Below are positions 2,458 to 36,906 of a stretch of 64,000 bases of DNA, piece by piece. The stretch spans positions 2,249,476 through 2,313,475 of the forward strand of contig OZ005700.1 in assembly GCA_963930775.1 (NCBI GenBank), given 5' to 3'. The notes under the pieces are model-generated. The model worked only from the letters and a program-made list of their open reading frames with translations, was not told where the DNA came from and ran no database searches. The DNA comes from Cliona cf. orientalis. Taxonomy: Eukaryota; Porifera; Demospongiae; Clionaida; Clionaidae. The position numbers were made by a program, and so were the translations under genes. Every line of letters begins with the position of its first letter. Within the stretch, counting starts at the first letter, position 1.

Positions 2458-4412
2458 ATGTCGGGCACGGTAGCTGCGTTCCAATCGTTCATCCAGCAGA
2501 ACGATGCCAGCTTTCTGGTCTTCTACAGGGGACTTTGGTGACCCTTCTGTGTGGTGAGCTAAAAAAATCTAAATTATAGTGAAAAAAATTAATTATCGGT
2601 GTTGCAGCCCTGAATCAGTGATTTCAGTGTATGTGCAGCTTGCATGGTAGATGAAAGAGAGGGAGATTGTTTGGGCAGTGGATCAACTACCATGACAAAA
2701 TTTTACAAGACATGTAGATCTATCTAAATCTTATTCTATCTGGCAAATTGTTTTGTTTCTTTTTCTCGTGCAGGAGTACCTCAAGCAGTTCAATGAACTG
2801 TTTGAGGAGCTCCAGTCGAAGAAGGTGGGGGTAATGGCCGTGTGTGCACAGCCACAGGACAAGGTGGACGAGATGGAGAAAAAGTTGAACCTCAAATTTA
2901 AGGTCAGTACTCTGTTCAACAAGGTAGTCAACACTTCCATCTACCGTATAGCATGGTATAGTGAGAGGGAGAAAACTTTCACCGATCAGGTGGAAGTGAG
3001 CATTTCGTGGGAATTAAAGCTTTCACGGGTGGCTCTCAAACAGTGAAATCCGTGAAAAATTTGCCGCCATACAGTATGCCAGTGATTTCATGCAGGGCAT
3101 TGTGATGCCACAGTACTGTGCATGAAACGAAAATTGGTGTATAGACTACACGTGCATCCGCTTACTGCAAGAAGCCCAACTGTTCAAAGATAGCTGGCAA
3201 GCTGAATCGAGCAATTAAGCTATTATTTTGACCTTGATGGTCTGATTTCTTGATCACCGTTGCAGGTGGGTCTTACCTAGCTATGTCATTCCAAAATTTA
3301 TTAGTCTGCACAAAATCTTCTGCAAGACGCAATCTCATTGAAAAGATATGATAATATTATGGTGGCTAGGCAAAAATTAAAATTAGAGAATTAGTGTAAG
3401 GCTACTGGGACACTAAATCTGCTTAGCGACTATTGTTTAGCTAGAGAATGTGGCCAGTAGAGCAGCTGCAGCCACAGTGTAGAGGGTGGGAGTGTGGGTG
3501 AAAAAGGACATGGCTCCCCTCCACTGCCATTGATATGGGCAATCTAAAAGACTTAGTGGTTCTGCTCTGCCTTTTGCTGGGACTAGGTTTGCCTGAGTAG
3601 CATTAGTGGATACTTTCCCCTCTGACCAAAATTCTTTATCTGGTAAATTCCAAGAATGCCACTAGTCTTGATAATGAGCATGAGTAGCCAGGGAATTTAA
3701 TGGAGTGGTTTTTCTGCACATTAGGTAGTATATACAGTTGGGAGAATGTGAATTTAAGGGTTGCAATTCGTGTAAATGAAACTTTCCACAATGTCATGGC
3801 TTCATTTTATGTAGTGCTACTCTGATGTGACTCATGAGCTTCGCAACTACGTGGCCAAGGAGGGCTACGTTGAGCCAGTCATCACTGGTGGACCAGGCAC
3901 CGAGGACCAGGACCTCTACCACGAGATCCGCAAGTACCCTAACGGCGTTGTCCAACCGGCCGTCCTCTGCATCAAGCCAGACACCACTGTCCTCTACAAG
4001 TGGCACATCATCCCTGCCGAGGTATGGTTAAAATTTAATATATGATATAGCTGCCGAGTCCATGGAAGGGATCTGCACGATGTGGAGACTCAAAGGGTGC
4101 TATAATAATTATTATACACACTAAGGGCCTGAGGGTATCTACATGGCTTCAAACAATAATTATTGAGTATGGTTTCCTGGCTGTGGCTGATTTAAACTAG
4201 TAATGCATGGTTATCACGCCTGTGTGCACACACCAAGCGTTCAGTTGAATCAGTTTTGTTTGTTTATTTGCTATAATATACAAATCATATTTCCAGCCTC
4301 TGCCTTTCTACCAGATTAATAATATTATCATCCTTTTCAGATGAATCTGGGCGGAGCCAAGGACAGGCCTGTCCCCTCCGACATCTGGAAGGAGGTCCAG
4401 GGAAAGCTGTAA
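2458..4412 (+). CDS. UxxC thioredoxin/peroxiredoxin-like selenoprotein, paralogue 1 (167 aa, TGA = Sec28)
   Basis: Four exons: 2458-2553, 2774-2902, 3815-4021, 4341-4412, all joined in phase 0 with GT-AG introns. Exon 1 reads VFYRGLW-TGA-PFC. The TGA at 2539-2541 falls where bacterial AhpC/TSA-type redoxins have the first Cys of FYRGxWCPxC, so it is read as selenocysteine (residue 28) with Cys31 as its partner. The next exons encode the helix EYLKQFNELFEELQSKKVGV, a VMAVCAQP strand, the cis-Pro-like segment GVVQPAVLCIKPD, and a short C-terminus ending GKL. A SECIS-like hairpin lies 128 bases after the stop, followed by AATAAA at 4679-4684. Predicted role: small cytosolic oxidoreductase or peroxidase, since no signal peptide is visible. 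The paralogue at 32157-36906 shares exon phases and most of the protein. Substrate is unknown. If TGA were a stop, the product would be a 27-residue peptide. Confidence 0.85.
2539..2541 (+). other. In-frame TGA, predicted selenocysteine codon (Sec28)
   Basis: This TGA sits between Trp and Pro-Phe-Cys, 12 bases before the exon 1 splice donor. Three downstream exons continue in the same frame and resemble the paralogue. A SECIS hairpin is present in the 3' UTR. Confidence 0.85.
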
Positions 4413-35100: not shown

Positions 35101-36906
35101 AACGTTTTAGCTGCCAACAGCTCCCAGCCATTCTAGAAACTCTACTACTAACCTCAATCAGTCAGAATAGTGAGGATGTAGTTGACAACATTTTGGCTAG
35201 GAGCATTCGAATGTCAATAATATTGTGTTGAGTCAGACTAGTGGGATGTATTAATTTTGACAACATTGGAGCGTCAATTTAGACAGTGGCTGCCCTCAGT
35301 CTGGGTAGTGGGGGATGGGCTTGGATCATTACCTTAATCAATTATAGGTGCATATCTCCTTTGGCCTGGGTCAGCTATCCCCAGATCTCCTCAGCTCAGG
35401 TCAGGTGCATACTAGCCACACCCACTTGCAGTGTGTAGAGATAGCTAGCTGGCTGCATGGTCACCACATGTGTTGGTCAGCGTTTCTATATAGCATCCTC
35501 TGATCAGCTGCATACTTGCCACACCCACTTGCATGTGTCCTCAGAAAATGTAATATCAGCTGCATACTTGCAGCCTGTGTAGGTCAGCTATCCTCAGGGC
35601 AGCTCAGCTCAGCTGCATACTTGCCACACCCACTTGCATGTGTAGCAAGCAGGCCGAGGACATGACAGATATTTATGATAACGAGAGGACATGACATTTT
35701 GCATAATTAAGTGCCACCTGAAACCTGGTACCTGGAGATGCTCTTGTTTGTGGTTGGTTGGAGGTGGTCAATTAGCGCTTCCATATCACATACCCATCTT
35801 CTCCTCAGTCAGCTAGCCTCCAGTCCACTCACACTCACTCATGCACACACACACAAACACACACACACACACACACACACACACACACACACACACACAC
35901 ACACACCTGTTTATATTTTAGGGCTCAAAGCCATAGATCTATTTGTCACGTTTATGCAGTAGCTGTTTATGGGTATATTGCTGGAGCAACATGTTTATGC
36001 AGTAGTTAGCTGAGTTTTCCTTTGAGCCAGGCTTTGGTTAGTCTACCCTACTGTAAACCTTGGCGTCACTACTTTTCACTGTAATAATTATTATTCTCAA
36101 TTTAGTAGGTGCTATACAGTAATAACTGGTACATGATGATAAACAGTTGAGGGTCCGATGTTTGGATTTTGAGCAATGGTTAGTTTGCTGATATGAGGCG
36201 TTATGTGACCAGAGGTTGCCCTGGTATGTACCAATTAACTCACCAAAGTATAAATGGTGCCTGTGTTTACTAAACTCTTGGATTAGTTGGTAGTGGCGTC
36301 TGATCTGATGGGCGTACTTACGGAACAAGTATGTATTGTGTAGGCTCACATGACATCTTTATATAGCTAGCTGTGATGTAATTTTGCATCATTTGTCTGT
36401 AGTTTGTATTTAGAGGCCCAGCTGTTTGGTCCTTTGAGGGCTACAGCCCTGATCTGTGGTGGAGTGGGGTTCTAAATGTGGCTTCATTAACTAGAGGATG
36501 GAAATGAGAAAGCTATGTGTGAATGCAAATTTTTGGTAATGGTCGCCACACGTGCCAGTGCTTGTAGATTGGTAATGATCGTCATTTTTAATTGTGCATT
36601 ATTTTGCTGGTTACTTAAAACTTTCCCTAAACACTACCCATTGAGAGTTTTGCAGTCACGTATATATGATTATGTGGCATGCATCCACTCACTCCATGCT
36701 GGCCAGGTATTTATCTCATTGAGAGTTTATCTCCCTTTCTACTGTTTCCATCACTTTAGATGAACATCGGTGGAGCGTCGGATAGACCTGTGCCGAGGGA
36801 CATCTGGACCGTCGTCCAAGCCAAGCTGGCCAATCCCAATGATGACTCCGCCACCCAAACTCGGATCCGAAACCGTGGGGCATGCTCCTTATGCAACATT
36901 TTGTAA
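32157..36906 (+). CDS. UxxC thioredoxin/peroxiredoxin-like selenoprotein, paralogue 2 (236 aa, TGA = Sec69)
   Basis: Five exons: 32157-32208, 32398-32564, 34344-34472, 34626-34841, 36760-36906, in consistent phase with GT-AG introns. Residues 1-45 are a Glu/Pro/Ser-rich N-terminus absent from paralogue 1. YYRGLW-TGA-PYCK follows, with Sec69 and Cys72. Exon 3 (129 nt) is the same length as paralogue 1's exon 2 and encodes AYLAEFNEFWEELKAKNVG. Exon 4 ends in GVAQPGVLCVKPD and WAINPSF, and exon 5 starts MNIGGASDRPVPRDIW, near-identical to MNLGGAKDRPVPSDIW in paralogue 1. A C-terminal extension ends in GACSLCNIL, giving a second possible CxxC (230-233). A SECIS-like hairpin lies 182 bases past the stop. 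Predicted role: small redox enzyme of unknown substrate, with no obvious signal peptide. Intron 2 contains a local tandem duplication. Confidence 0.85.
32550..32552 (+). other. In-frame TGA, predicted selenocysteine codon (Sec69)
   Basis: TGA between Trp and Pro-Tyr-Cys, exactly matching the context of the TGA at 2539 in the paralogue. Twelve coding bases later the exon ends at GTGAGT, and three homologous exons follow. Confidence 0.85.
33293..33975. repeat. Imperfect tandem duplication in selenoprotein 2 intron 2
   Basis: Two units of about 290 bp (roughly 33300-33590 and 33680-33975) share CAAGGTGTAGCCCAGTAGCT, TACCCTCCTTTGTGT, GGCTTCCTTGG and other blocks, with scattered differences. Probable function: none visible. 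Confidence 0.7.
34505..34613. repeat. (CT)n-rich microsatellite at an intron acceptor
   Basis: CT/CTTT repeats of about 110 bases fill most of the 153-bp intron between exons 3 and 4 of selenoprotein 2 and end just before TGCAG at 34621-34625. Confidence 0.95.
35400..35645. repeat. Dispersed short direct repeats in selenoprotein 2 intron 4
   Basis: Three spaced copies of a unit containing GCATACTTGCCACACCCACT (first copy with one change) at about 35405, 35510 and 35615, each about 105 bp apart, separated by diverged CAGCTATCCTCAG-type sequence. This looks like a degenerate tandem array. Confidence 0.7.
35845..35906. repeat. (CA)n microsatellite
   Basis: About 60 bases of CA repeat in the last intron of selenoprotein 2. 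Confidence 0.95.

Follow-up and report, generated by a model that had tools for sequence, protein, structure and literature searches.

A window of 64,000 nucleotides from the genome of Cliona cf. orientalis (contig OZ005700.1, positions 2,249,476 to 2,313,475) contains two paralogous genes, G1 (2458-4412 in window positions, which are used throughout unless a contig is named) and G2 (32157-36906), each with a TGA codon in frame. These are very likely sponge AhpC-like selenoprotein genes, encoding small thioredoxin-fold redoxins in which selenocysteine (Sec) would be the first residue of a CxxC pair. For G2 and its relatives the evidence leans towards Sec redoxins that a prenyl anchor holds on the cytosolic side of membranes, the Sec paralogue that lacks this tail lying 30 kb off and one clade having a transmembrane tail instead. 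The Sec family itself is already known; the conserved CaaX tail looks new.

Gene structure and the codon within the redox motif

G1 has four coding exons, all phase 0, and encodes 167 residues, while G2 has five and encodes 236; all introns are of the GT..AG type (Table 1). Both frames are unbroken except for a single TGA each (2539 and 32550). A sequence-only reading of this DNA had pointed to these codons in the context RGLW-TGA-P(F/Y)C, and the context is indeed the same in both genes. Its claim that coding resumes in phase past the TGA also holds, with 83/167 aligned residues identical between the two proteins (Sec counted as a match) and the introns intact. The exon junctions agree as well, although at three places, all phase 0, rather than the two proposed: after the exon carrying UxxC, before the Y/F-SD exon, and before MN[LI]GGA. 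Two parts of G2 have no counterpart in G1: an N-terminal extension, acidic and rich in proline, and a tail at the C-terminus.

A degenerate DNA pattern of the motif, allowing up to three mismatches, occurred at three places against 0.31 expected, and none of 100 shuffles reached three; the third place (39363, minus strand, three mismatches) is unrelated. As the pattern was composed after the finding had been seen, the evidential weight lies on the alignment of G1 with G2.

Relatives were collected as 124 proteins from two database searches. The strict motif [FY]YRGxW?PxC is present in 40 of them, with Cys at the place of the TGA in 38 and W in two. These two, P0001 and P0017, are the two full-length G2-type proteins, and their W seems best explained by a gene caller translating TGA as Trp. 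The same W could be taken to mean that this genome uses TGA for Trp or Cys, or else the codon could be a sequencing error, with no Sec in either case. We regard this as extremely unlikely: two adjoining genes terminate at TGA, whereas G1 and G2 end in TAA; W is absent at the site from all 38 other strict-motif relatives; and two independent errors in one codon of two paralogues would be improbable. Bacterial forms read FFRGDWCPWC at the motif, and fungal Cys relatives are plentiful, one search giving 117 matches, many of them named as fungi.

Table 1. Positions of the features of G1 and G2 in the window, and of the SelL-like genes on other contigs.
Feature	Position	Strand	Remarks
G1 exon 1, FYRGLW-U-PFC inside	2458..2553	+	
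G1 TGA in frame, proposed Sec codon	2539..2541	+	
G1 exon 2	2774..2902	+	
G1 exon 3	3815..4021	+	
G1 exon 4, MNLGGAKDRP...VQGKL	4341..4412	+	TAA stop, without tail
G1 SECIS-like hairpin, 3' UTR	4536..4594	+	AUGA, UAAAC loop, CUGAU; Rfam SECIS_1 17.1 bits, gathering 35
G2 exon 1, N-terminal extension	32157..32208	+	acidic
G2 exon 2, YYRGLW-U-PYC inside	32398..32564	+	
G2 TGA in frame, proposed Sec codon	32550..32552	+	
G2 exon 3	34344..34472	+	
G2 exon 4	34626..34841	+	
G2 exon 5	36760..36906	+	TAA stop
G2 tail RNRGACSLCNIL	36868..36903	+	CaaX box CNIL (36892-36903)
G2 SECIS-like hairpin, 3' UTR	37084..37141	+	AUGA, UAAAC loop, AGAU for UGAU; no Rfam SECIS match
SelL-like cluster	G000:C6:10518692-10531491		UxxC genes: five intact, each of one exon, plus a broken copy
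SelL-like genes	C3:5942512-5954476		two UxxC genes
SelL-like gene	C17:1291376-1291912		one UxxU gene
SelL-like gene	C18:1131998-1132549		one UxxU gene

Candidate SECIS hairpins and selenocysteine machinery

The 3' untranslated regions (UTRs) of G1 and G2 have one strong stretch in common (46/58 identical, E 1e-9), which folds like a selenocysteine insertion sequence (SECIS): AUGA, a helix, UAAACC in the loop and then UGAU in G1 or AGAU in G2. The sequence-only reading had named no SECIS; each gene has this candidate. A consensus structure was drawn from these two folds, hence from two sequences only. In it 28/28 cells are paired and two pairs differ on both sides, while sliding the partners by 1-3 columns lowers the pairing from 100% to 43-63%.

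The same genome holds a tRNA-Sec scoring 76.8 bits (cut-off 47), with TCA read in the anticodon loop, and three further, weaker matches of 47-49 bits which are also above the cut-off. SepSecS exons scored above cut-off, with six matches in all. In the same stretch as the exon matches to SPS there is a frame reading LKGUGCKVPQEE, which from its motif we take to be the Sec exon of SPS2.

Several results must be set against this. The SECIS check on the 3' UTRs came out divided, with a homologous candidate hairpin in both genes and yet no SECIS at the Rfam gathering score: G1 reaches 17.1 of 35 bits, and the hairpin of G2, whose quartet is AGAU, has no Rfam SECIS match. The folding is only slightly better than that of shuffled sequences (z -1.66 and -1.45, with 15 and 16 of 200 shuffles equally good), and a loose home-made SECIS scan was unspecific, with 9 strict and 47 loose matches over the whole window on both strands. 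Since there are only two sequences, a covariation shuffle (135/500) had no power and is uninformative. The three single-exon matches to SPS score 26-32 bits, none above the cut-off of 125. A covariance model of the two hairpins, run on 12 sources, recovered just the pair it was built from; Rfam also missed a hairpin predicted 3' of one of the SelL-like genes described below.

The Rfam scores under threshold would suit a reading of the TGA codons as true stops, which would make G1 and G2 decayed genes or genes encoding short N-terminal peptides. This is very improbable, however, as the coding sequence downstream is conserved in both paralogues, the splice sites are intact, neither gene has another stop, a hairpin is found in both 3' UTRs, and both full-length outside relatives, P0001 and P0017, read W at the site. 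TGA at a Cys position in both paralogues, coding conserved on either side of it, homologous SECIS-like hairpins and Sec machinery in the genome leave us in little doubt that the TGA of G1 and G2 would be read as Sec. This supports the earlier proposal of a pair of UxxC Sec redoxins, whose genes the usual gene-calling programs would truncate at the TGA.

Family relationships and the C-terminal tail of G2

Both proteins belong to the AhpC-TSA family PF00578 by score (47.5 and 44.5 bits; cut-off 26), and the Redoxin Pfam also matches. A tree of 38 rows, arbitrarily rooted, was drawn from the 124 proteins, G1, G2 and three bacterial proteins. Rows grouping with G1 and G2, which we label sponge-type, form one group (99/98), as do the fungal (98/97) and the bacterial rows (100/99). 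The sequence-only reading could place the pair in neither SelL nor SelU, and the family models concur: NF040769 gives 28.1 and 21.9 bits, far under its cut-off of 120 for SelL, and PF13911, which we take to cover SelU/PRXL2, is absent from the families matched by G1 or G2. Typical peroxiredoxins carry the peroxidatic motif PxxxTxxC, which is not found here, where the motif is YRGLWUPxC.

A bacterial scan gave six loci (L037-L042). Three of them (L037, L039 and L040) are Cys forms ending MN[LI]GGA, L041 resembles fungal DNA with an intron, and L042 matches the front part only. L038, from Tateyamaria, has a stop at the Trp ahead of the active-site Cys (FFRGD*CPWC), just before position 2055, where its sister L040 differs.

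A large expansion of the G1/G2 family was suggested by 13 PF00578 matches, 11 of them with TGA in frame. It was rejected because, when the 217 Mb genome was searched with the two proteins, the eight matches of G1 and the nine of G2 all fell within these two genes. The other TGA-bearing PF00578 matches that were read are SelL-like, with the exception of L002, where the exon reading VCPTEI belongs to an ordinary peroxiredoxin. The SelL-like genes constitute a separate selenoprotein set (L025-L036) on C6, C3, C17 and C18, with 96.1 bits to NF040769 (cut-off 120), and each of the five intact C6 genes has a SECIS-like hairpin 54-123 nucleotides 3' of its stop. As a 2012 table lists a single SelL for Amphimedon (PMC3473315), the set may be a lineage expansion.

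G2 ends in RGACSLCNIL, and G1 is without such a tail. Tails were counted in 18 G2-type proteins, namely G2 and 17 database proteins (P0001 included) that reach the NxGGA end. The count excluded 14 G2-type pieces short of NxGGA (P0097, P0102, P0105-P0110, P0112-P0115, P0119 and P0120) and six G1-type pieces (P0002, P0003, P0005, P0007, P0009 and P0010). An end of the form C-x-x-[LQ] is present in 15/18, G2 included, with Leu last in 13 and Gln in two. Among these 15, R-10, G-9, S-6 and C-4 are invariant, the a2 position of the CaaX box is always I, L or V, and C-7 is present in 14, while the linker ahead of this conserved core varies. By comparison, Cys at -4 occurs in 0/54 other family members longer than 140 residues that reach the NxGGA motif. 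Many fungal Cys relatives (e.g. P0006, P0013 and P0034) have a K[IL]FG-like end, unlike the CaaX tail.

From this pattern we predict that the tail is a prenylation signal, and G2 is somewhat more likely than not to be prenylated. Some observations argue in the other direction. Three of the 18 proteins (P0017, P0071 and P0072) have no CaaX box and form one clade (100/99); the first 'a' of the box is polar (N, A, T or S); and P0121 is a nearly identical copy of G2. P0017, the sole full-length member of the CaaX-less clade, has a hydrophobic C-terminal stretch (mean 2.54 over 19 residues), which may be read as a replacement membrane anchor, and P0071 and P0072 break off before this point, possibly because an exon or a contig ends there.

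Alternatively, the Sec could be correct and the tail not prenylated, with the C-terminal CSxC acting as a second redox pair that feeds electrons to the active site. C-7 and C-4 are indeed spaced as CxxC in 14/15 CaaX-ended proteins, and mobile tails of this sort exist in other redox selenoproteins. We consider it unlikely, though worth serious attention, because P0054 lacks C-7 and yet keeps C-4 exactly four residues from the end, all 15 proteins have an aliphatic residue and then Leu or Gln at the end, and one clade has a hydrophobic helix in that place. A literature search on selenoproteins with prenylation, CaaX or geranylgeranyl turned up no prenylated selenoprotein in the text it covered.

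As for the neighbourhood, a convergent alpha/beta hydrolase gene lies 3' of G1 (5006-8108, minus strand; PF00561, 118 bits). A plus-strand gene at 29500-31512, which by eye we take to encode an EB1-type microtubule protein, ends DEDEQEEY before a TGA stop.

Proposed reaction and comparison with known systems

We suggest that the hairpins would recode UGA and that the Sec would attack an oxidised substrate, which may be a disulfide or a peroxide, after which the Cys three positions further along would resolve it as a selenenylsulfide, to be re-reduced by thioredoxin or glutathione. Judging from its tail, G2 would be prenylated on the Cys of CNIL, with geranylgeranyl since the protein ends in Leu, and would act at the cytosolic face of the membrane, while the tail-less G1 would work in solution. 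The Cys three residues ahead of the CNIL Cys is a possible palmitoylation site, and G2 may carry this modification too. A convergent gene 3' of G2 (37577-39540, minus strand; PF02230, 164 bits) resembles an acyl-protein thioesterase, a curious coincidence if G2 is palmitoylated near the CaaX box.

In profile alignments, thioredoxin and ResA chains place their whole WCPxC on the motif, whereas the Cys of the PrxQ-like thiol peroxidase 2cx3/4gqc (FSPVC) falls on its second Cys. The latter, together with the Pfam AhpC-TSA and Redoxin matches, would fit a peroxiredoxin-type peroxidase in which the Sec is still correct, with the second residue (Cys) of UxxC as peroxidatic and the Sec as resolving residue. 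This assignment appears doubtful to us: because the thioredoxin and ResA WCPxC cover the motif, which makes Sec the nucleophile, we think it more probable that the Sec is a nucleophile of the thioredoxin kind and the Cys the resolving residue.

On the Sec side, G1 and G2 provide a chromosomal example resolved in detail, with exon structures and candidate SECIS elements for both genes. If the CaaX tail is what it seems, it would place one of the two proteins at the membrane surface, suggest a substrate among oxidised lipids or the thiols bound to membranes, and add a lipid-anchored form to the known ways of siting selenoproteins in cells. The fungal and bacterial Cys relatives, moreover, offer ordinary laboratory systems for finding the reaction.

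It had been thought that the pair may be undescribed in this lineage. This is not supported, as AhpC-like selenoproteins, named 'Aq.AphC.like', were reported from three sponges, with three in Amphimedon, two in Oscarella and a partial one in Suberites (Jiang et al. 2012, PMC3473315). On the basis of that report we assign G1 and G2 to this family as additional examples, the comparison with the published members being by description only. That the pair is an animal one is consistent with the sponge distribution given there. As in the published proteins, which come from sponges and have a SECIS in the 3' UTR, the proposed Sec lies in an AhpC-like thioredoxin-fold protein with multiple copies per genome, here with a candidate 3' UTR SECIS, and one Amphimedon copy has five coding exons, the same number as G2 (PMC3473315). 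In contrast, many Amphimedon SECIS are of the GUGA_AA form and the hairpins of G1 and G2 of the AUGA_AA form. The family was called sponge-specific, no eukaryotic relatives outside sponges being found in 2012 (PMC3473315), whereas fungal Cys relatives are now plentiful. The words 'prenyl' and 'CaaX' are absent from the main text of that paper.

Other selenoproteins are comparable in part. AhpC_b of Thalassiosira oceanica, known from one diatom, has an AhpC/TSA domain with UxxC and prokaryotic Cys relatives, as do G1 and G2, the likeness being by description only (PMC7539508). The Prx-like selenoproteins SelL and SelU share the redoxin fold and a UxxC or UxxU near the N-terminus, although their family models do not accept G1 and G2. 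MIEN1 belongs to a SelW-like family and has Cys instead of Sec, and we claim no kinship with G2. However, it is described as a membrane-bound protein of thioredoxin-like fold with a CxxC and a geranylgeranylated C-terminal CaaX box, CVIL (PMC3527542, PMC6738349), and in combining a CxxC-type motif with a CaaX box on a thioredoxin fold it is the nearest working parallel to G2.

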